From a virus, in the IMG/VR virus record IMGVR_UViG_3300008450_000459, positions 1 through 23,631 of that record: DNA of 23,631 bases; one strand, written 5' to 3'. The notes under the pieces were generated by a model that saw only the letters and a program-made list of their open reading frames with translations, searched no databases and was not told the DNA's origin. Position numbers and translations under genes: made by a program. Below are positions 4,543-23,325 of this stretch, in pieces (the stretch's first letter is position 1; the number at the start of each line of letters is the position of its first letter).

Positions 4543-5511
4543 CTAAATAGCAGCTAGTTTTTTACCTTTTAATTTTTGTTCAAGAGTGATTAGTTCATCT
4601 TGATTATCATCATCGATTAAGAATTTCACTAAAGCTTCTTCATCGTTTGCAATTTCAAATTCTCCTTCATAAACTCTACCGTTCGGTTTCACTCTATAAA
4701 TTGAATGATTAATTGCTTGTTTAACTAAATCTTTAATATGGAGCAGGTTTTCTTTCATGTCAGCAAATCTATTAAACACTTCAACAGGGTTTAATCCTTG
4801 GAAAGATCCTGTTTTAAACTCTGCTTGTTTTAAAACATTATCCACCTGATTGTAGACAATCTCTTCTTTGGTATCCTCTGTTACTGGAAGTCCTAAAAGT
4901 CTTGCCACTTTACGTTTCTTCTCAGGAGTCATAGCGTCAAACTTAACAATTGCTTTATTGATCAATTGTTTTTTCTTAAAGATTATTCCACTTTCAATAT
5001 CCTCATCAACAACATAAAATTGTGTATCTGCAGGAAATTCTCCTCTTTCCCATGCTTGGTAAGAACTTGCAATAGTTGGATGAACTCTTAACCAAGAAAA
5101 TGCTAATTCTTGAAAAGCAACAGCGAAATCAAAAAAGTTATCACCATCTAAAAGTTTAACAGGTTGTACGTGTGTGTAGTCTTCTGTAGAAGTAGATAAT
5201 CCATAGTTCCAAAATTTAGATCTTGGTCCTAAATCAATATCTCCTAATGCAGCTTCTAGCTTATCACGTAGTTTAGTAACTCTTTCAATTTCCAACTCTC
5301 TTTCTGTAGGATCTGAAATTCTTTTGATGTAACTAGCGTTTGGATCAAGTCCTGTTCTATATTGTCCATCAAGTTCTTTGTAAGGGTATTTGAAAACTCC
5401 TGTTCCAGGAATTCTTGTCATACCTTTTGATGCAAGATTACTTTGCATAGTTTGCAACTGTGAAGTTGTGTACTCTTTCTTTAACGTAGAGATCTTCCCT
5501 ATTCTGCCCAT
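4543..5511 (-). CDS. Unknown head-region structural protein
   Basis: The product is 322 residues, basic at the N-terminus (MGRIGKISTLKKEYTTSQL) and strongly charged and helical throughout, with a run of acidic residues near the end (FLIDDDNQDELITLEQKL) and a Lys-rich finish (KGKKLAAI). I do not recognise the family. It is the first gene after the capsid gene, separated from it by a 202-base hairpin-rich gap, so candidates are a head-completion, cargo or internal head protein. The start is ATG at 5511 in the context AACTACATTATG, which also precedes two other minus-strand genes here and supports this start. No membrane segment or signal peptide is visible. Confidence 0.75.
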   Translation of the reverse strand: MGRIGKISTLKKEYTTSQLQTMQSNLASKGMTRIPGTGVFKYPYKELDGQYRTGLDPNASYIKRISDPTERELEIERVTKLRDKLEAALGDIDLGPRSKFWNYGLSTSTEDYTHVQPVKLLDGDNFFDFAVAFQELAFSWLRVHPTIASSYQAWERGEFPADTQFYVVDEDIESGIIFKKKQLINKAIVKFDAMTPEKKRKVARLLGLPVTEDTKEEIVYNQVDNVLKQAEFKTGSFQGLNPVEVFNRFADMKENLLHIKDLVKQAINHSIYRVKPNGRVYEGEFEIANDEEALVKFLIDDDNQDELITLEQKLKGKKLAAI

Positions 5512-5549
5512 AATGTAGTTATTTAATTATAATTTGGTTTTAATTTAGA

Positions 5550-5703
5550 AGAGTGTTCCCATCGAAGGGAATGCGACTGGTAAACCAATCCATCACTCTA
5601 GTTTGAGATCAATCCCCTCTAGGAGGGAGTGGGTGTGAGGGGATCTTTCTCGGATAAATGAGTTACTCTGGGACGCTGTTCTAATGGGTAGCGTAGCAAC
5701 TAC
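5550..5703 (-). ncRNA. Structured intergenic RNA candidate downstream of capsid gene
   Basis: The 202-base gap between the capsid gene and the next gene is far more structured than other gaps here. An outer stem AGAGTG (5550-5555) with CACTCT (5594-5599) encloses two hairpins: TTCCC (5556-5560) with GGGAA (5567-5571), and TGG/CCA around 5578-5588. Next comes an 8-pair stem ATCCCCTC (5612-5619) with GAGGGGAT (5637-5644), and then ACGCT (5673-5677) with AGCGT (5690-5694), which can alternatively pair as GTAG (5688-5691) with CTAC (5700-5703). It is richer in G and C than its surroundings. I see no ORF in it. It may be a 3' UTR stabiliser, a processing site, a regulatory leader for the next gene, or a free small RNA. 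Strand is inferred from the flanking genes. Confidence 0.5.
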
Positions 5704-5713
5704 TTTTTTATTA

Positions 5714-7282
5714 TTAGAATTGTGGGATTTCTTCGATCAACACAGTTCTTGACAAATCTTCAATGAATACGTCACATCTGTCTTTCATCCAGATTTCGTA
5801 TCCTGGGAATTTGTTAGCTGAACTCATACCTTGTGACTTAGCAAAACCTAAGTGGTGACGAGTACCATCAATATAACCCCAAGTCATAGAAGGAGCACCT
5901 TTCATTCTCACTTCACGAATGTTATTTACCATTGAACCATCAGACATTGGAGACACATCAAACACCATAAATACTGGAGTAGATTTTTTGTTTTGTCCAA
6001 ACTCTAAGTTAGATTGTGGTAAATCTAATTCTTTCAAGTGGATTAATTCAACTCTACCAGTCTCACGAGTTACCATTGCATCAAATGCAAAGTTGTAAGT
6101 GATATGTTGTCCTTCTCCTTGTAAATATCTGTTTCCAGAATCAGCCATAAATGTAAGACCTGAATTCAATGCATCATTTTTCAAAGCTTGTTGGAATACA
6201 TCGAATCCAGCTTCGTTGGTGTACATTTTAACTCTTCTGTCTTTTACATCCACACGTCTGTAGAATAAATCTCCAAATACTGAACGAATCAAGTTAGCAG
6301 AAAATTCACCTCTGTTGTATTGTACTAAGTTACCATTGTTTCTCATTCTGTGGTAAACAACAGCAGATGTACGTTTAACTTCTTGTTTAGAACCGTTAGT
6401 TTTCACTGTACCTGGTTTAGCCCAGATCATACGTTTAACTTTCAACTCTAACATAGACTTACGCATCCAGAACTCGATGAACGGTTCCCATTTAACATCA
6501 TTACGAGTTAAAGGTAATTGGTTACGTCTTTGTGGAGCATATACTAAAATGTCAAGTGGCTTACCAGAAGCATCTCTCATCATTTTGTCATCAGCCCATT
6601 CAGTGATTTTGTGCTCATAACCATATGCAGAACCTAATGATTCAAACATAGTGATTTTTTCACCCAATCTTGGTAATCCTAATAAGTCTTGATCAAATTC
6701 TCCAATAGCAGCATCAACCAATTCTAATTCAATACCTACTTGTAAGAATGTAGAAGATACAAAATCAACAACAGGATTGTCAGTTACTAATGTAAATGAA
6801 TACAAGAATCCCATGTTCCAGTTGATTGGATCTTTGGTTACATAGAATCTAGGACCATATTGACGAGATCCAACTGATACAATGGCATTTTTAGAGAACT
6901 CATTAGTATCTAATACTAATTGGAATTCTTGACCATCAATACCTGGTTTACCACTACCTTCTTCTAAGATGGCAGTTAAACTTGCAGGGATATCAATAAT
7001 TTTTGGGAATTTGTAAGGAACTTGAATATCCCATTTCCAAGCATCACTATTATTATCAATGTAATAAGGAGTGGACTTGTTAATCATATCTAAGAAGTCA
7101 TTGCTGTACAATGAGCTCTGAGTATACAAACTGATGATTTTTTTATCATAGTCTGCAGGTTCTGTAGAGTGAAAAGACTCTAAGTGGTTTGAGTCGGTTA
7201 ATTTACCAACAGCACGTTTGTCCATAGAGGCAACACGAGCGTAAGTAAAACCAGTTAAACCAGGAATAGTTTGAATTGACAT
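5714..7282 (-). CDS. Major capsid protein
   Basis: The product is 522 residues, in the range for large HK97-fold capsid proteins of Bacteroidota phages. It starts MSIQTIPGLTGFTYARVA, has no Cys-rich or low-complexity parts, and alternates beta strands and short helices as in capsid proteins (for example WKWDIQVPYKFPKIIDIPAS, then VGSRQYGPRFYVTKDPINW and GHQ-free aromatic-rich loops). It follows the portal and an acidic scaffold-like gene in the usual head-gene order, which is the main support. Codon usage looks well adapted (regular CCA, GTA, AGA), consistent with a highly expressed gene. The gene is preceded 28 bases upstream by the scaffold-like gene and followed by the structured gap. The assignment rests on size and order; a structure prediction would settle it. 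Confidence 0.75.
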   Translation of the reverse strand: MSIQTIPGLTGFTYARVASMDKRAVGKLTDSNHLESFHSTEPADYDKKIISLYTQSSLYSNDFLDMINKSTPYYIDNNSDAWKWDIQVPYKFPKIIDIPASLTAILEEGSGKPGIDGQEFQLVLDTNEFSKNAIVSVGSRQYGPRFYVTKDPINWNMGFLYSFTLVTDNPVVDFVSSTFLQVGIELELVDAAIGEFDQDLLGLPRLGEKITMFESLGSAYGYEHKITEWADDKMMRDASGKPLDILVYAPQRRNQLPLTRNDVKWEPFIEFWMRKSMLELKVKRMIWAKPGTVKTNGSKQEVKRTSAVVYHRMRNNGNLVQYNRGEFSANLIRSVFGDLFYRRVDVKDRRVKMYTNEAGFDVFQQALKNDALNSGLTFMADSGNRYLQGEGQHITYNFAFDAMVTRETGRVELIHLKELDLPQSNLEFGQNKKSTPVFMVFDVSPMSDGSMVNNIREVRMKGAPSMTWGYIDGTRHHLGFAKSQGMSSANKFPGYEIWMKDRCDVFIEDLSRTVLIEEIPQF

Positions 7283-8564: not shown

Positions 8565-8703
8565 AATGTAGTTGTATTTAATATTTGGTTTATATTCTAT
8601 GTAAAACTAAAATAGTTATTTATAATTACAAAAGAAATAACACTATATATCAAACTTTTTGTCGGATAATATAGCATTATGTTTTATTTCTCCTTAAAAA
8701 AGT
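8565..8703 (-). other. 139-base AT-rich gap between portal and scaffold genes
   Basis: In the minus direction the gap reads through AAACATAATGC, then a TTTG (within AAAAAGTTTGATATATAG) and a CTTTTG further down, before the AACTACATTATG start context of the scaffold gene. The two boxes are only loosely placed for a Bacteroidota promoter, and the inner box lacks a clean TAnnTTTG. It could hold a secondary promoter for scaffold and capsid genes. No hairpin followed by a T-tract is evident. Confidence 0.3.
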
Positions 8704-13946: not shown

Positions 13947-14228
13947 TTATTCCATTAATTTATTGATGTCATCATCAGATAGAGGTGTTACATCATCATC
14001 ATCATTAATATCTATTTGTATTTCTCTATCTAATTCTTGTATATCATCATCGTCTTCATCCTCCTCATCCTCTAAATACTCAGGCTTCACTGTAATCTTA
14101 ATTGTATCTCGTAAGGACTTACCATCATCATTTACACTTCCTTCCAAATCAATAAAATTCACACCATCCTCATACAATCCTTGAAGAATTTCTATAAACG
14201 GTCCTAATGGTATTTTACGTAGTTCCAT
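13947..14228 (-). CDS. Small acidic protein of unknown function
   Basis: I chose the ATG at 14228 (MELRKIPLGPFIEILQGLYE, 93 residues). A longer reading from 14252 would need a TTG start and would overlap the upstream gene more. The N-terminal 50 residues form a compact alpha/beta unit (IPLGPFIEIL, GVNFIDLEG). The C-terminal half is very acidic, with runs of Asp and Glu (EDEEDEDDDDIQELDREI). The start lies within the last codons of the upstream zinc-ribbon gene (14-base overlap). Similar proteins with the opening 'MEL+KIPLGPF' occur in Bacteroidota phages by memory, without known function. The acidic tail could bind basic partners such as the HU-like protein in this operon, or mimic DNA; neither can be shown here. 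Confidence 0.7.
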   Translation of the reverse strand: MELRKIPLGPFIEILQGLYEDGVNFIDLEGSVNDDGKSLRDTIKITVKPEYLEDEEDEDDDDIQELDREIQIDINDDDDVTPLSDDDINKLME

Positions 14229-14484
14229 CGTTCTCTGGCATTTGTTGTGCAAGCCATTTCTTTAATGGGCATTCACATGTTAAACATTTAGTTTTTGCAG
14301 ACAATGTGCATCCACAATTTGTGCAATGTGCATCTGGTCTTATAGATAGATGATTCTTAGAATGAAACTCACATGAATTACATATATCAAGTCTTGAAAT
14401 ACTAACATGTTCTATGAAAGCTTTCATTCTTTCTTCTGGAAGGAGGTGGTTCTTCCATCCTTCATATATTTGACTTACTCCCAT
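14215..14484 (-). CDS. Zinc-ribbon-like Cys-rich protein
   Basis: I chose the ATG at 14484 (MGVSQIYEGW, 89 residues), since the longer reading starts at a TTG. Eight Cys lie at 35, 38, 54, 57, 59, 67, 70 and 72: CNSC, CTNCGC and CLTCEC. This arrangement can bind two zinc ions, and the ending CPLKKWL is typical of a small family I associate with Bacteroidota phages. The N-terminal 30 residues are helical. The start is inside the previous gene's last codons (23-base overlap), so it is co-translated. Possible roles are nucleic-acid or protein binding in early packaging or gene regulation. The zinc call is well supported by the Cys pattern; the function is not. Confidence 0.8.
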   Translation of the reverse strand: MGVSQIYEGWKNHLLPEERMKAFIEHVSISRLDICNSCEFHSKNHLSIRPDAHCTNCGCTLSAKTKCLTCECPLKKWLAQQMPENDGTT

Positions 14485-17598: not shown

Positions 17599-17886
17599 AT
17601 GAACGTAGTTGACACAATAAAGCACATCATTGATACTAATGACATCACTGATCAGGATATTCTTTCTCTTAGAGAGTATTTCTCTTCTATATTTACATCA
17701 GAAGAGATGAAAGCCTGGGAAGAAACCAATGAAATGGCTAATGAGCAGTTCTTGAAAGAACAATTAGACGATCCATATTTTGATGGATATTGGGAATGTA
17801 ATCATGGTACATTACACACACATAATGATGTATGTAATTGTGATGAATATAAAGATTATCCTTGTGATATAGTAAATGAATTTTAA
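17599..17886 (+). CDS. 95-residue protein with Cys/His-rich C-terminus
   Basis: The N-terminal 55 residues are helical and acidic (VVDTIKHIIDTNDITDQDIL, EEMKAWEETNEMANEQFLKE). The C-terminus holds ECNHGTLHTHNDVCNCDEY, then DYPCD: several Cys and His in a pattern able to bind a metal ion. A small zinc-binding protein is therefore likely. The gene starts 22 bases after the previous stop and lacks a clear copy of the CCTTAATAA motif (only TTAAATCTATATACATT). The family is not recognised. A role in host takeover is possible, from its position only. Confidence 0.7.
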   Translation: MNVVDTIKHIIDTNDITDQDILSLREYFSSIFTSEEMKAWEETNEMANEQFLKEQLDDPYFDGYWECNHGTLHTHNDVCNCDEYKDYPCDIVNEF

Positions 17887-17907
17887 ATCTCCTTAATAAT
17901 AAATATC

Positions 17908-18141
17908 ATGAACAACGATTTTAAAAAAGGACTATTGATAGGACTATTGATATGTCTAGCACATTTTACAATAACAGTGTTTATATTATCTACAATGGTA
18001 GATGATAACAAACAAAAGATTGATTACCAATTAGAACTCATCAATCAAACTGATGTAAGACTAATGGATGAACATGGTGAGACATTATACATCACAACAT
18101 TTGATAGTATTGGATATTACATTGATCAAGATAATCTTTAA
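17908..18141 (+). CDS. Single-pass membrane protein (77 residues)
   Basis: The protein begins MNNDFKKGLLIGLLICLAHF and has one hydrophobic segment (about residues 8-31, GLLIGLLICLAHFTITVFIL) right after a short basic start, so the N-terminus probably faces the cytoplasm and the remaining 45 residues (NKQKIDYQLELINQTDVRLM onward) face the periplasm. It is preceded by a full copy of the gene-start motif (CTCCTTAATAATAAA, ATG 16 bases after its CT). The function is unknown. Small inner-membrane proteins early in phage genomes often interfere with superinfection or host transport, but nothing here shows which. Confidence 0.7.
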   Translation: MNNDFKKGLLIGLLICLAHFTITVFILSTMVDDNKQKIDYQLELINQTDVRLMDEHGETLYITTFDSIGYYIDQDNL

Positions 18142-18161
18142 ACCCTTAATAATAAAAAGAA

Positions 18162-18473
18162 ATGAGCAAACATTTAACCAATGAGCAAATAGATAACAGA
18201 CTTGGTGCTGTTATGAATGCATTCAAAGAAGAGAATGCTACAGGTGTGTGTAATATGAACGCTGTAGCCAGTTTATTAGAGCGTGGATCATATAGCATTA
18301 ATGGTGACGCTAAGACTAATGAACAAGTGGCTAAATCAATCAGAAGATTGACAACCTTTGTTAATAGAATATCTGACATAGTGCATAAAGGCACTGAAGA
18401 ATGTGATCTTGATACTCAGATTGATGAGAATCATAAGTTTTGGAAAGATCTTGCAGAAATATTAAATCCTTAA
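18162..18473 (+). CDS. Helical 103-residue unknown protein
   Basis: The product starts MSKHLTNEQIDNRLGAVMNA and is almost wholly helical (ASLLERGSYSINGDAKTNEQ, then RRLTTFVNRISDIVHKGTEE), ending KFWKDLAEILNP. The motif CCCTTAATAATAAA begins 17 bases before the ATG. Its own stop lies in the next copy of the motif (CCT TAA TAA TAA), so the motif serves as end of one gene and start region of the next. No known domain is recognised, and there is no membrane segment. It may be a small DNA- or RNA-binding regulator, but that is a guess from its helix content only. Confidence 0.7.
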   Translation: MSKHLTNEQIDNRLGAVMNAFKEENATGVCNMNAVASLLERGSYSINGDAKTNEQVAKSIRRLTTFVNRISDIVHKGTEECDLDTQIDENHKFWKDLAEILNP

Positions 18474-18483
18474 TAATAAACAA

Positions 18484-18687
18484 ATGAAATCAACAAAAAT
18501 TATGTTGGCTGTAATAGCCACATTTCTCATTACATGGTGTGTAATGGGACTAATAGGTTGGATGGTGTCTGACTTACCATTTAAAGAATGTATTACACAT
18601 GGTGGTACATTAATGCTTATGTTAATCTTTGGTTGGATACCTGCTGTATTTGTAGGTGCTGATCTTGATGAGTATTTAGATTCTTAA
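18484..18687 (+). CDS. Two-pass membrane protein (67 residues)
   Basis: MKSTKIMLAVIATFLITWCV begins a first hydrophobic segment (about 7-28) and THGGTLMLMLIFGWIPAVFV a second (about 38-58), separated by a polar loop (SDLPFKECI). The end is acidic (GADLDEYLDS). Two short hydrophobic helices with small loops resemble phage holins or small membrane anti-host proteins, but no lysis gene is nearby. The gene-start motif CCTTAATAATAAA lies directly before it (ATG 15 bases after its CT). Confidence 0.7.
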   Translation: MKSTKIMLAVIATFLITWCVMGLIGWMVSDLPFKECITHGGTLMLMLIFGWIPAVFVGADLDEYLDS

Positions 18688-18692
18688 TCATT

Positions 18693-19046
18693 ATGGAAAA
18701 AAGAAAACAACGAAATGAACCAGTGTTTAAAGCCGCTGTTTGTGTAAACAATCAAAAAGAATGTAATGCACTCAAAATATTGTGTATCAAATATGATCTT
18801 CCTATATGGAAAGGTAAAGAAGCATTTGATATGATGGATTACGATTATGCACATTTACATTATCGTGATGCTGGTAATGATGATTATTGTTTCTATATTG
18901 ATATAGTAGATGAAGATAATCTTGAAGAACTCAACATTGTATCTGTAGAAGAGTTTGAACAACTTGCTAATGATCTAAACCCTCAATATGATGGTATAGA
19001 TGATATATTATCTAAAATGAAAGAATTAAATCGTATGTTAAATTAA
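18693..19046 (+). CDS. 117-residue soluble acidic protein
   Basis: The product starts MEKRKQRNEPVFKAAVCVNN and contains KILCIKYDLPIWKGKEAFDM, then FYIDIVDEDNLEELNIVSVE and a C-terminal helix (DDILSKMKELNRML). It looks like a small alpha/beta protein of unknown function with a strongly acidic middle. It begins 5 bases after the preceding stop, with only a partial start motif (CTTAATCATT, ATG 10 bases later). No family is recognised. Confidence 0.7.
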   Translation: MEKRKQRNEPVFKAAVCVNNQKECNALKILCIKYDLPIWKGKEAFDMMDYDYAHLHYRDAGNDDYCFYIDIVDEDNLEELNIVSVEEFEQLANDLNPQYDGIDDILSKMKELNRMLN

Positions 19047-19061
19047 ATCTCCTTAATAACA

Positions 19062-19253
19062 ATGAAAATCGAACAAATTGAAAAGCGTATTCAAGACATC
19101 AAGAATGAAATTCATTCTCTTGATGCTACAAAAGAGTCTTATGATGATGTGAATGTACACAGCATAGAAGATCAAATTGATTCATTATTAACTGAAAGAA
19201 ACTCTCTGATGGAATTATTGGAGAGTTCTTTTGATAATCTAATTGGCTTATGA
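19062..19253 (+). CDS. 63-residue coiled-coil protein
   Basis: Almost the whole protein looks like a coiled coil: MKIEQIEKRIQDIKNEIHSL, then SIEDQIDSLLTERNSLMELL. It starts 10 bases after the CT of the CCTTAATAAC motif and ends in an ATGA overlap with the next gene (stop 19251-19253). This is the first of five genes linked by overlaps (19062-20052), so they are likely translated together. A dimeric helix bundle is likely; the partner and role are unknown. Confidence 0.7.
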   Translation: MKIEQIEKRIQDIKNEIHSLDATKESYDDVNVHSIEDQIDSLLTERNSLMELLESSFDNLIGL

Positions 19254-19507
19254 AAAAATTATTCAAACTATGTAAAGTTAATTTATTAGCTTTTCTAACG
19301 CCTGAACCAGAGATTCAACAAGAGTATGTTGACAAGATGGTTATTCTCTTACGTAGAGATTTCACAACGACACAACAGAATGAAATCGTTGTGAGTGTAG
19401 CAAAACAACTTTCTCAGCTTAGAGAGAAAGATATGGAAAGAATGACAATTGAATATGACATTCTACAGAAAGACACTAACCATTTAAAAAATGTAATATT
19501 ATGCTAA
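19250..19507 (+). CDS. 85-residue unknown helical protein
   Basis: The protein begins MKKLFKLCKVNLLAFLTPEP, a short basic and hydrophobic opening that might be a weak membrane-associated stretch, then becomes helical (EYVDKMVILLRRDFTTTQQN, VSVAKQLSQLREKDMERMTI). Its start overlaps the previous gene (ATGA) and its end overlaps the next one (ATGCTAA, 7 bases). No family is known. The N-terminal hydrophobic piece is too short to call a signal peptide with confidence. Confidence 0.65.
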   Translation: MKKLFKLCKVNLLAFLTPEPEIQQEYVDKMVILLRRDFTTTQQNEIVVSVAKQLSQLREKDMERMTIEYDILQKDTNHLKNVILC

Positions 19508-19671
19508 TATATTGTATGATTTGTTATTTGGTAATGTTGGGAATGATGCTTGAAGCATATGGTAAAGAAGGTATTCCATTCTCAACTTGGATGATTTGGT
19601 TATTTAGTCCGCTTGTTCTTCCAATTATTGTTGGTATGATGTTAGTTGAAAAACGTGAAAGCAATGAGTAG
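19501..19671 (+). CDS. 56-residue two-helix membrane protein
   Basis: MLIYCMICYLVMLGMMLEAY forms a first hydrophobic segment and WMIWLFSPLVLPIIVGMMLV a second, with GKEGIPFST between them and a charged end (EKRESNE). Start and stop both lie inside neighbouring genes: it overlaps the preceding gene by 7 bases and the following one by 8. Five Met in the first 20 residues is unusual but fits a small membrane protein. A holin-like or membrane-scaffold role is possible and unproven. Confidence 0.65.
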   Translation: MLIYCMICYLVMLGMMLEAYGKEGIPFSTWMIWLFSPLVLPIIVGMMLVEKRESNE

Positions 19672-19900
19672 AGATCCACACATTGATGAGATAATTCAAA
19701 ATCTTGAATCTCTTGCAAAAGCTCAATCATCAGCATTGAAAGTGTCCAAAGAAATCATTGCTCTAAAAAATAGATACATAGAACTATGTGAAATGGAAAC
19801 AGCTCTGTACAAAAAACAAGTTAGTAAACATGGTGTAACAGTGCTTGTATTATCTGTAATGCTTATTACTACATCAGTTCTTTTATTATGTAATTTATGA
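19664..19900 (+). CDS. 78-residue protein with coiled coil and C-terminal membrane helix
   Basis: I chose the ATG at 19664 (MSRDPHIDEIIQNLESLAKA); the longer reading from 19646 would use a TTG. Residues about 5-50 are helical and coiled-coil-like (EIIALKNRYIELCEMETALY), and the last 25 residues are a hydrophobic segment (VTVLVLSVMLITTSVLLLCN) ending at the stop, so it is a tail-anchored membrane protein. Its start overlaps the end of the two-helix membrane gene and its stop overlaps the next start (ATGA). Adjacent small membrane proteins could form one complex. Confidence 0.7.
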   Translation: MSRDPHIDEIIQNLESLAKAQSSALKVSKEIIALKNRYIELCEMETALYKKQVSKHGVTVLVLSVMLITTSVLLLCNL

Positions 19901-20052
19901 GACGTAGAATAAGTAAAGGCACATTAGTAGGTTCAACTAATCCTCTTAGAAGAATAACTTCTAAGAGGCTTATAGTTGAGGTGTTATACAATTTCAGACA
20001 TGGGATTGTGAAAGAGAAAGTAATTGATGTGAGAACATCTATAGAACAATAA
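19897..20052 (+). CDS. 51-residue basic protein
   Basis: The product starts MRRRISKGTLVGSTNPLRRI and is rich in Arg and Lys (TSKRLIVEVLYNFRHGIVKE). It overlaps the preceding gene by ATGA and is the last of the overlapping chain. A perfect 11-pair inverted repeat lies inside its coding sequence (19942-19968). A basic protein of this size might bind nucleic acid; nothing else is recognisable. An upstream copy of the gene-start motif is absent, so expression depends on coupling to the previous gene. Confidence 0.65.
   Translation: MRRRISKGTLVGSTNPLRRITSKRLIVEVLYNFRHGIVKEKVIDVRTSIEQ
19942..19968 (+). repeat. Perfect 11-base inverted repeat inside a coding region
   Basis: CCTCTTAGAAG (19942-19952) and CTTCTAAGAGG (19958-19968) are exact inverted copies around AATAA. 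As RNA this is a stable hairpin in the reading frame of the basic protein. It has no T-tract, so a terminator is unlikely; RNA processing, a protein-binding site or translational control are alternatives. Confidence 0.6.
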
Positions 20053-20079
20053 ACAGTTTAATTTAAATCCTTAATAATC

Positions 20080-20580
20080 ATGCAAAGTACAAAAACAAGT
20101 ATTTTCAGTTTTGACCACGGTCAAAAAAAGCTTAACAAAGCAATTGGTGTAGAAGAATCCTATATGGATGATCTTCAAGAACAAATCGGAGATGTGTTGA
20201 AAGACTATCTCTTTGATGAAGACAAGAACTTAAAAGATGATTTATCACCAAGTTTGTTGGTGGAGAAATGTCTTCACGAGTTTAGTTACAATCAATTAAT
20301 TCTTATGTCATCATTCTTCTTACAAGGTAAGATAGAAGAGTTTGCAACTATGACAGAGAAAAAATTGAAGAAACTATCTGCAAAGGTTCAAAAGATTGCC
20401 TTAGATGAGGATGATATTCCACCACACATCAAAGACGCTCTTATGAGACTAATGGAAGAGGGTGAGGGAACATCTAAAAATAGTGCTATCAATGGTGATG
20501 ATCTTCCACAAGAGATCAAAGACTTCCTTGACGATATTGTCAACAAGTCTGATGATGATGGTGATGGAGATGATGATTAG
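20080..20580 (+). CDS. 166-residue acidic protein upstream of the AAA/VWA pair
   Basis: The protein starts MQSTKTSIFSFDHGQKKLNK and is highly acidic at its end, with a run of Asp/Gly residues after NKSDDD. The middle is helical (YMDDLQEQIGDVLKDYLFDE, NQLILMSSFFLQGKIEEFAT), and two similar segments recur: DIPPHIKDALMRLMEEGEG and DLPQEIKDFLDDIVNKSD, an internal duplication. The start has a full CCTTAATAAT motif, and a terminator follows 7 bases after the stop, so this gene may be a separate unit from the ATPase genes. MoxR/VWA pairs often have a third, accessory protein next to them; this could be one, but the link is positional. No family is recognised. Confidence 0.7.
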   Translation: MQSTKTSIFSFDHGQKKLNKAIGVEESYMDDLQEQIGDVLKDYLFDEDKNLKDDLSPSLLVEKCLHEFSYNQLILMSSFFLQGKIEEFATMTEKKLKKLSAKVQKIALDEDDIPPHIKDALMRLMEEGEGTSKNSAINGDDLPQEIKDFLDDIVNKSDDDGDGDDD

Positions 20581-20626: not shown

Positions 20627-21955
20627 ATGAGTAAATATAGATTTAAGACAGCAGAAGAATTTAAAGCAGATGGTGATTGGTTAGATCATCCTAATGGAAA
20701 ATCATTTCCATCTCATTGGAATGATAATGGTGCTATGGATAGATTCTATGGACAAGAGATTCCTGATGAATTCAATGAAGTGATTGAAGCAAGAAAAGAT
20801 TTCAGTCATGATGGTTGGTCATTCAGAGCATGTGAATGTGTAGAGATTGAAGTAGAGCTATCAGAAGAAGAAACAAAAGAAATTTTAAACCAAGTAAAAG
20901 AAAAAAACAATTCCTTAATAACAAAAAAAATGAAAAACACAGAAACAAAATCAGTAAAGAGAAATCCAGTAGCAGAGAAGTTCGTATTTATGGACAAAAC
21001 AGTTAACATCCTAAACGTAGGATTTATGACTGGTAAGAATGTTGTATTGTTTGGTCCAGGTGGACACGGTAAATCAGAAATCACATTGGATTTCTTGAAG
21101 AGTAAGGGTATTGATCCATTCATCCAAACAATGGGTACAGGTATGACTACAGACAGATTGTTTGGTGGTCTTGATATACCAACATTCGAAACAACAGGTA
21201 AGATTGAATACCTTGTTGAGAATAGTTTTATGAACCACGAGTATGTAATCTTCGAAGAGTTGTTCGATGCTCCTGATTTCATTCTAGAGCAGTTGAAGGA
21301 CATTCTATCATCTGGTGTATTCAGAAATGGTACACAGATATTTCCTATCAACACCAAGTTCATCATCTGTTGTACTAACAGAACTCGTGATGAATTCTCT
21401 AAGAACATGTCATTGAAGGCATTGATGGAGCGTTTCCCATTAGAACTTAATGTTATCTGGGATAACTACACGGAGATTAGTTACAACAAATTGTTGGAGA
21501 GCAAGTTTGGTGAAGGAGAGGTTGATCCTGTTATTCCTTATTTGTTACAGGAATATGCTAAGAACAACATCACCATTTCACCTCGTGTTGCTGTTACAGC
21601 ATATCAGGTGTATGATGAATGTGGTCCAGAATCATTGTCATTCATTGCTGAGTTTGCAAAGAAACCATCTCTTATTGCTGAAGCAATTAAGAAATTTGAA
21701 TCTACAATCAAATTCAGAGAGTTGTCTGCAAGCATTACAGAAATGATTGAGACACTAACCACTCTTCCATTGGTAAGTAGAGAAGATGAGAAGACTTACA
21801 AAGAGGCCATTAGAAGCCTTGAAATGCAGTTAACTGATATCAAAGGCTTATCAGTGGGTGATGATGTAGCACATGTACACGCACAGCTTGTTAAAGCAGC
21901 TAAATCTGCTGTTGAGAAATTCAACAAGAATCTAACTATTGCTTCTTTCGTATAA
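20627..21955 (+). CDS. MoxR-like AAA+ ATPase with fused small N-terminal domain
   Basis: The full ORF has 442 residues. Residues 1-101 form a separate small acidic domain (MSKYRFKTAEEFKADGDW, NDNGAMDRFYGQEIPDEF). From M102 the MoxR-type AAA+ module begins: Walker A GPGGHGKS (143-150), Walker B EYVIFEE (205-211), sensor-1-like FIICCTN (245-251) and arginine finger in MERFP (267-271). MoxR ATPases act as chaperones that remodel or insert cofactors in partner proteins together with VWA proteins, and a VWA gene follows directly (TAATG overlap). At codon 102 an ATG is preceded by a full copy of the gene-start motif (CCTTAATAACAA), so a shorter 341-residue ATPase could be made from 20930. Whether the N-terminal part is a true fusion or two proteins cannot be decided here. 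The AAA+ call is strong. Confidence 0.88.
   Translation: MSKYRFKTAEEFKADGDWLDHPNGKSFPSHWNDNGAMDRFYGQEIPDEFNEVIEARKDFSHDGWSFRACECVEIEVELSEEETKEILNQVKEKNNSLITKKMKNTETKSVKRNPVAEKFVFMDKTVNILNVGFMTGKNVVLFGPGGHGKSEITLDFLKSKGIDPFIQTMGTGMTTDRLFGGLDIPTFETTGKIEYLVENSFMNHEYVIFEELFDAPDFILEQLKDILSSGVFRNGTQIFPINTKFIICCTNRTRDEFSKNMSLKALMERFPLELNVIWDNYTEISYNKLLESKFGEGEVDPVIPYLLQEYAKNNITISPRVAVTAYQVYDECGPESLSFIAEFAKKPSLIAEAIKKFESTIKFRELSASITEMIETLTTLPLVSREDEKTYKEAIRSLEMQLTDIKGLSVGDDVAHVHAQLVKAAKSAVEKFNKNLTIASFV
20913..20932 (+). promoter_or_regulatory. Internal gene-start motif and ATG within the AAA gene
   Basis: CCTTAATAACAAAAAAA at 20913-20929 leads to ATG at 20930-20932, codon 102 of the long ORF. It is in the same relative position as the motif before other genes (CT 16 bases before the ATG). 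In the ORF frame the bases are read as SLITKK, while in another frame they give two TAA stops. A one-base change upstream would split the ORF into two genes. Confidence 0.65.
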
Positions 21956-23325
21956 TGTCAAAGTATTGGGATGATGGGTATGACGATTACTATGGTAGTC
22001 GTTATGCTCCAACCTATGCTCCTAAGAAAAGCACAGGGGGTTGGAAGAGTAAATATAGTGGTGGTGGTTGGTCCAAAAGTGGATGGGGTTCATTCTCTTT
22101 CTCTTGGGGTGCTGATTCAGACAATAATGATGATTTGTTTGTTAAAGATCCAATTAACTATCTGACACCAACAGCATCAGAAATCAGAAAGAAAGTGCAT
22201 GCTCCTAAGCAAAGTTCTGTTGATACAATCAAAGAATTAGCACGTGTGTGTTATTTCAAGATGATTGACGAGCGTGATTTTGTAGCTGAGCAGTTTGTAG
22301 GTTCTGAAGACAGTGAACATCAACAAAGAAAGGCTTTATACGACAGTATATTTGAGCAATATATTCCTGGATTCACACCATTAGAGCAAGCCATATCTAT
22401 TTTCTTGAAAATGAAGAGTGGTAAAGAATATGCTGAGAAGAATGAAGATGATGATGATGAATTGGACATGAAGAAAGGATTAGACTTTGATAGACAACTT
22501 TACAGTGATCCAAACATCAATGAACAATTAGATCTTAATGAACTAAGTAAAGAAAGAAAGATGGAGATTATGAACCATCTATCTCTTGTTGGTCAGTTTG
22601 GATCTGAGTTCAAGGTGGAGAAAGAAATCACGGAAAAGATTGTTGCTAATTCTGATCAGTATTCTACAATGATTATGAGAGACTATTCTCAAATTCATAT
22701 GATGAATCTAGTGCAGAAGGTGTTTCCAAACTTCAGAAGTAAGTTCTTAACTAAAGACTTAACAGTGAGTGTTCCAGTTGATAGAAAAGAACAACTTCAG
22801 AAGATCATCATCATTCTTGACTATTCAGGAAGTATGGGTTATGATCAGAAACAGATATGGGTTAATGCTATTCTTATAGACAGATTCAAATATGTTATGA
22901 GAGGAGAGGCTGAAGTGTTCTTTAGTTATTTCGTTGACCGTACAGATGATCTTAAATTCCAACACATCAAGGATAGAGAAGATGTCATCAAGTTTTGGCA
23001 AACATTCTCTAATGATCCAAATGGTGGTATGACAGAGGTGGGTGATATGGTTAGACATATATCTGATGAAATACAATCTGGAAGATTATGCAATCTTGAT
23101 GTAAACCTATCAGAAGAGAAACCAGAGATTCTTGTTATCAACGATGGTCAAGATGATATTGGTACAGATGCATTCCCATACAAAGTGAATGCTGTCTCAT
23201 TGTTAGAATTCAGTGATGAATTGAAAGATCTTTGTCTTGCTACAGGTGGTAAACAAATTGAGGTGACACACGATCTTGATGTGTTTAGTTATTCAACTGA
23301 AGGAGGCAAACAACAAGTTAAATAA
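21955..23325 (+). CDS. VWA-domain partner of the MoxR ATPase, with Tyr/Trp/Gly-rich N-terminus
   Basis: This 456-residue protein begins with an unusual low-complexity section rich in Gly, Ser, Tyr and Trp (about residues 1-55, MSKYWDDGYDDYYGSRY, GGWKSKYSGGGWSKSGWGSF). A helical middle (about 60-270) contains a short Asp/Glu run near 163-170. The C-terminal VWA domain has a complete metal-ion site: ILDYSGSMG (287-295; Asp289, Ser291, Ser293), GGMTEVGDM (357-365; Thr360) and INDGQDD (395-401). VWA proteins partner with MoxR ATPases in chaperone-like assemblies, and the gene is coupled to the ATPase by a one-base overlap. What the pair acts on in this phage is unknown. The disordered aromatic N-terminus is not typical and could drive condensation or partner binding; that is inference. 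Confidence 0.9.
   Translation: MSKYWDDGYDDYYGSRYAPTYAPKKSTGGWKSKYSGGGWSKSGWGSFSFSWGADSDNNDDLFVKDPINYLTPTASEIRKKVHAPKQSSVDTIKELARVCYFKMIDERDFVAEQFVGSEDSEHQQRKALYDSIFEQYIPGFTPLEQAISIFLKMKSGKEYAEKNEDDDDELDMKKGLDFDRQLYSDPNINEQLDLNELSKERKMEIMNHLSLVGQFGSEFKVEKEITEKIVANSDQYSTMIMRDYSQIHMMNLVQKVFPNFRSKFLTKDLTVSVPVDRKEQLQKIIIILDYSGSMGYDQKQIWVNAILIDRFKYVMRGEAEVFFSYFVDRTDDLKFQHIKDREDVIKFWQTFSNDPNGGMTEVGDMVRHISDEIQSGRLCNLDVNLSEEKPEILVINDGQDDIGTDAFPYKVNAVSLLEFSDELKDLCLATGGKQIEVTHDLDVFSYSTEGGKQQVK

Follow-up and report, generated by a model that had tools for sequence, protein, structure and literature searches.

A covarying three-way junction RNA behind the capsid gene in a clade of crAss-like phages, and its possible place at the end of the capsid mRNA

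What is the compact element of several hairpins that lies directly behind the capsid gene of this phage, and what may it do there? The window, as we call the whole stretch of DNA analysed, is a 23.6-kb virus sequence (23,631 nt) that makes up the source record. PHROG head and packaging families match its capsid, portal and terminase. In its terminase the phage shares 41% identity with Leptolyngbya phage Lbo-JY46, 32% with the Cellulophaga phages phi17:2 and phi4:1, and some 26-30% with gut crAss-like phages; we therefore place it in an environmental clade of crAss-like phages. A DNA similarity search against phage records gave nothing useful. Tissierellales was considered as host and rejected, given that it rests on one capsid relative in a MAG contig, which is too weak to name a host. 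On the plus strand, at 20627-23325, an ATPase gene (PHROG ATPase) is directly followed by a gene with a DYSGSM motif in its product; this motif resembles a von Willebrand A domain, and the two look like a MoxR/VWA-like gene pair.

The gap behind the capsid gene

The window's structural genes, including that for the capsid, are carried on the minus strand, and the RNA of the gap is therefore read on that strand, in the order hairpin A, hairpin B, three-way junction and, for the next gene, an AAACCA...AACTACAT leader. The features are as follows.

4543-5511, minus strand: next gene (322 aa; PHROG 16383, protein of unknown function)
5512-5540, minus strand: leader of the next gene, AAACCA (5535-5540) ... 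AACTACATT immediately 5' of the ATG
5549-5600, minus strand: three-way junction, identified by covariation and covariance-model matches
5594-5600 with 5549-5555, minus strand: stem P1 of the junction, 7 bp, UAGAGUG/CACUCUU (in the window, 6 pairs and one T-T)
5571-5593, minus strand: arm P2, with an invariant bulged G at 5574
5556-5570, minus strand: arm P3, with loop UUCGAU at 5561-5566
5605-5651, minus strand: hairpin B, long and stable, with lower stem GAGA/UCUC, upper stem AUCCCCUC/GAGGGGAU and a pyrimidine-rich loop
5661-5701, minus strand: hairpin A, first module 3' of the capsid stop, with a 7-bp stem, then a CGCU/AGCG stem of 4-5 bp and loop UACCCAUUAGAAC (5678-5690)
5714-7282, minus strand: gene of the major capsid protein (PHROG 11589, major head protein), located upstream of the element

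The gap between the two genes (5512-5713) is 202 nt long. As an initial annotation of this DNA had noted, it is richer in G and C (39.6%, and 48.7% in 5550-5703) than the flanking genes (35.8% and 33.6%), and the stems described there exist, namely an AGAGTG/CACTCT outer stem around two hairpins (5549-5600), a stem of 8-9 pairs (5605-5651) and a further stem (about 5661-5701). Its remark that other gaps are mostly under 40 bases is fair, with exceptions of 139 nt (8565-8703, before the scaffold gene), 103 nt and 75 nt.

Folded as minus-strand RNA, the gap has z = -3.83, with 0 of 200 shuffles equally good, and each of three structured parts is stable alone on this strand (z = -2.97, -4.11 and -2.61), whereas the plus strand reaches only z = -1.81, with a different structure. 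In three overlapping alignments, the paired positions contain 156 G-U cells against 30 A-C cells (A-C being the antisense of G-U), 70 against 15 and 102 against 28, and the capsid-sense RNA is therefore the selected molecule. No family of Rfam 15 matches the gap, either at the gathering score or with E<=5, which makes the element new to Rfam. Rfam matches of the window and of three relatives stayed at chance level, whether the threshold was gathering or lax, apart from a real tRNA in the relatives. No description of the element was found in the open-access literature.

Covariation and distribution of the junction

The queries used to collect relatives were the capsid protein, the proteins of two downstream genes and a capsid relative, with up to 80 viral loci from each. 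Among the matches listed there are 183 distinct gaps between the capsid stop and the following start codon, mostly 118-245 nt in length; several relatives are fragments, and 8 of the 183 gaps came via a DNA-pattern scan of the element itself, so that about 175 are free of that selection. A covariance model, R1, detects the junction in 179 of these gaps and three more have it by eye (L068, L177 and L305). Conservation in 182 of 183 related gaps therefore puts the element beyond chance. The one gap that lacks the junction, L101 (120 nt), has hairpin B joined straight to the leader and is a natural deletion; the junction is therefore not strictly essential. L277, a MAG contig with an 88% identical capsid, has an outlying junction (covariance-model E 0.0036) with GGAGGGG/CCCCUCC, a short arm and the UUCGAU loop of the window. 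Nine distant capsid relatives scanned with R1 lack it. The junction is single-copy in 12 long genomes, with no other significant match; copies elsewhere in genomes were looked for and none was convincing (one match at E 0.46, in G002). The clade is common in public viral metagenome collections (three protein searches gave at least 598 rows each), and the element occurs in nearly all examined phages of the clade, yet is missing from Rfam.

Covariation was counted in a 39-member alignment of the junction. With the structure given above, 94.0% of cells pair (73.8% in shuffles) and 19 of the 22 pairs have two-sided changes, with 144 two-sided cells against 41 in shuffles, in an alignment whose members were hand-picked and whose covariation counts are inflated by the kinship of the sequences. 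Pairing collapses when the structure is slid by one base, and this control and the many distinct compensatory types point the same way as the counts, despite kinship and hand-picking. P1, for instance, occurs as GUG/CAC, UGG/CCA, GAU/AUC, GUAA/UUAC and others, with a near-constant CAGA/UCUG foot. RNAalifold recovers nearly the same structure unaided, and in a 98-member covariance-model alignment the highest corrected mutual information, obtained with the structure not used, falls on the base pairs of the junction. The element is a structured RNA, as had been proposed: covariation in relatives had been set beforehand as the test that could refute the proposal, and covarying pairs are present there. 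Nearly invariant among the unpaired positions are, in the 3' strand of P2, the bulged G and the C after it, and, in P3, the UUCRNU loop, whereas the loops of P2 and hairpin B vary. Mutual information gave no strong non-helical signal for a tertiary partner of the UUCR loop.

The formal pair counts cover the junction and neither of the two hairpins. Hairpin B is retained in nearly all relatives with a stem that varies in sequence, and its covariation rests on listed stems rather than on counts, as the MAFFT alignment is not structure-true. The loop motif of hairpin A is present in 34 of the 183 related gaps, the window (5678-5690) included, and the others have a different hairpin. Its consensus is CC-R-Y-..AGAAC, flanked by covarying GCU/AGC, GCA/UGC or CCA/UGG pairs, and it is a second conserved RNA motif.

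The position of the junction is fixed. Hairpin B comes first, about 4-8 nt from P1, with other hairpins inserted between the two in some relatives, and the foot of the junction lies 26-36 nt from the next start codon in most of the 179 members. In some relatives, HNH-like genes (350-580 nt) or tRNA genes (about 75 nt) separate the junction from the next gene. A tRNA-Met(CAT) lies 3-6 nt 3' of the junction in all ten tRNA-bearing gaps (L062, L065, L073, L076, L080, L083, L119, L125, L147 and L173), and in G006 the tRNA-Met of this gap is the sole tRNA detected in the genome. The slot thus tolerates RNA cargo 3' of the junction. This is compatible with an untranslated region that may be processed, and it makes a tight coupling to the next gene less likely.

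Other features were seen in the course of this comparison. ORFs like HNH homing endonucleases occur in the post-capsid gap of L003, L056, L061, L065, L068, L109, L228 and L337, some with duplicated leaders. Further hairpin modules of a AAGCCTCTT type and a GCATTTGCCTTAG type recur in L010, L053, L062, L074, L083, L098, L106, L125, L147 and L163. In the phage genome L366, ARAGORN calls a tmRNA (14088-14411, minus strand) that is possibly spurious.

Possible roles of the element

The start of the next gene bears on the role of the gap. AAACCA precedes the window genes at 5511, 8564 (scaffold) and 15170, each after a gap of more than 100 nt; the leader signal of the 5511 type also stands before the scaffold gene and, in part, before the 15170 gene. 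In the window and two genomes, with gene calls that are simple ORFs, AAACCA lies upstream of 18 of 90 genes after long gaps vs 10 of 162 after short gaps, and it ranks first among hexamers of the same composition in long-gap enrichment. It may be a transcription or leader signal, a putative transcript start. Several early genes (17599-20080, plus strand) have CCTTAATAATAA or CTCCTTAATAA in common, shortly 5' of the ATG, which may be an early start signal of a different kind from the late AAACCA...AACTACAT leader.

Distant crAss-like phages also carry AAACCA. The gap measures 64-103 nt in the group of Lbo-JY46 and its relatives and has small hairpins at most, which in L258 and L262 carry a terminator-like T-run tail; an AAACCA-like leader comes after them in most, then the next gene. 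The capsid gene of phi17:2 has a strong hairpin (AAAAGCAGAG..CUCUGCUUUU) on its 3' side, and AAAACCA lies 5' of the gene that follows. Outgroups have a simple hairpin here instead of the junction, with the gene behind the leader unchanged, and the order of capsid, hairpin, AAACCA leader and next gene looks like the older layout, elaborated in the window's clade.

We tentatively favour the reading that the gap is a boundary of two late transcription units, at which the scaffold-capsid transcript ends as a structured 3' UTR. Transcripts of the scaffold and capsid genes would run into the gap and end there, with a 3' UTR composed of hairpin A, then the stable hairpin B, then the compact junction. 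Hairpin B may block 3'-to-5' decay, and the junction could be a specific docking or processing site, while the next gene would start afresh from its own leader. Of the three roles that had been proposed, the best fit is to stabilise the capsid mRNA or to form its end, because the element is placed after the capsid stop and before the putative start motif, where outgroups have a simple hairpin, terminator-like in two. Covariation, strand bias, fixed single-copy position behind the capsid gene, outgroup layout, the long-gap excess of AAACCA, tRNA-like geometry and the tRNA-Met 3-6 nt behind the junction count for this 3'-end role. Against it count the lack of a U-run 3' of hairpin B and of any terminator call (0 terminator-like sites in a search of 5400-5800), broken T-loop rules and L101 without the junction; the tight spacing of junction and start also fits a 5'-leader role.

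A more specific step may be considered for the 3' end. RNase P cuts minimal acceptor/T-arm substrates and is believed to gauge a distance of 12 bp between T-loop and 5' end; some phage RNAs and mRNAs are also among its substrates (PMC11143913). Among the 176 members parsed, 140 have a P1 of 7 or more contiguous pairs, in 95 of them exactly 7, and from the P3 loop to the 3' arm of P1 there are 5 nt (110 members) or 6 nt (65), which gives 12 or 13 layers if P1 and P3 stack. A stack of P1 (7 bp) on P3 (about 5 bp) with its UUCRNU loop would resemble a tRNA acceptor/T-arm, and suggests RNase P-type processing. With P1 end to end on the UUCRNU-closed P3, the junction would offer the shape that RNase P measures in pre-tRNAs, and cleavage at the 5' foot of P1 would place the end of the capsid mRNA just behind hairpin B. 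The likeness has its failures. A 7-nt T-loop with A58 and a closing G53-C61 is absent, the loop being of 6 nt and the closing pair mostly C-G. Position 5 of the loop is A in 133 members, G in 33, C in 5 and T in 5. A strict T-loop was rejected because of the loop length and of position 5, which differs from A in about a quarter of the members. Neither ARAGORN nor Rfam RF00005 calls the junction a tRNA, and both find only the separate tRNA-Met genes. We therefore limit our tentative claim to a structured 3' boundary element and keep the RNase P step apart. It is doubtful, if conceivable, that an anticodon-arm-less tRNA-like RNA in the capsid mRNA 3' UTR recruits host RNase P for a cut just behind the protective hairpin. 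The process would be a phage version of 3'-end formation of the MALAT1 type and would set capsid mRNA abundance.

Other explanations place the function elsewhere. The junction could be a cis-regulatory receptor in the 5' leader of the 322-aa gene, tuning its translation or transcription in response to a phage protein or small molecule. Its invariant non-helical bulged G and UUCR..U loop look like a binding site, and its foot stands 26-36 nt from the start codon in most of the 179 members. However, MFE and centroid structures have no alternative pairing to the leader, and in distant relatives the AAACCA leader is present where the junction is missing. Control of the next gene, as had also been proposed, is possible but weaker than a role at the mRNA end, because tRNAs (about 75 nt) and HNH-like genes (350-580 nt) can come between element and gene, and we regard it as unlikely. 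We think it similarly improbable that a discrete small RNA is excised from the capsid transcript to work in trans, be it on RNAs of the host, on ribosomes or on proteins. The fold is compact, a genuine tRNA-Met occupies the same slot in ten relatives and the hairpin modules of the gap are exchangeable, but no conserved single strand is long enough for a target, and the loops of P2 and hairpin B vary.

A packaging or virion-assembly signal, whether pRNA-like or a capsid-bound site, has the neighbourhood of capsid and head genes in its favour and nothing else. The element has no Rfam match, is single-copy and is not beside the terminase gene, phages with homologous capsid and terminase lack it, and L101 argues against an essential role; the packaging RNA that had been suggested is thus unsupported, and we consider it very unlikely. 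Hairpins are common in phage gaps, and a mere DNA-level or chance feature (a cruciform or inverted repeats) would need no RNA role at all. This reading retains hardly any probability, being refuted in the main by covariation and by the 156 G-U vs 30 A-C paired cells, which indicate selection of the sense RNA. A covariation-supported structure behind a crAss-like capsid gene, together with a natural deletion and outgroups, makes the shaping of the capsid mRNA end directly testable.

Comparison with known systems

In purine aptamer-type riboswitches, P1 of a three-way junction closes two hairpins in an untranslated region. The same arrangement is found here, but the junction differs in having no Rfam match, conserved junction strands or loop-loop kissing pattern. 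The stable RNAs C and D of phage T4 lie in a tRNA cluster and have no assigned role; the element is likewise a structured phage RNA beside tRNA genes. With intrinsic terminators between phage late genes it shares its position, where distant relatives have a simple hairpin, some with a T-run tail. Unlike them, the element has no U-run and has a much larger conserved architecture with an invariant loop and bulge.

Minimal RNase P substrates and tRNA-like structures include phage C4 RNA, T4 gene 32 mRNA and the tRNA-like ends of plant viruses (PMC11143913). The junction is like them in its 7-bp and about 5-bp stems, which would give 12-13 layers if stacked, the UUCR start of its loop and its place within a long transcript. 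It differs in that it has one long P2 arm in place of an anticodon arm, a 6-nt loop, a mostly C-G closing pair and no CCA, and cleavage here is only proposed. In MALAT1/mascRNA, a stable 3' structure and then a tRNA-like element take part in the maturation of the RNA 3' end. The gap belongs to a bacterial virus, has a hairpin rather than a triple helix and is processed only by proposal. Here too, though, a stable structure near the 3' end comes first and a tRNA-like element second, and the latter would define where the RNA ends.
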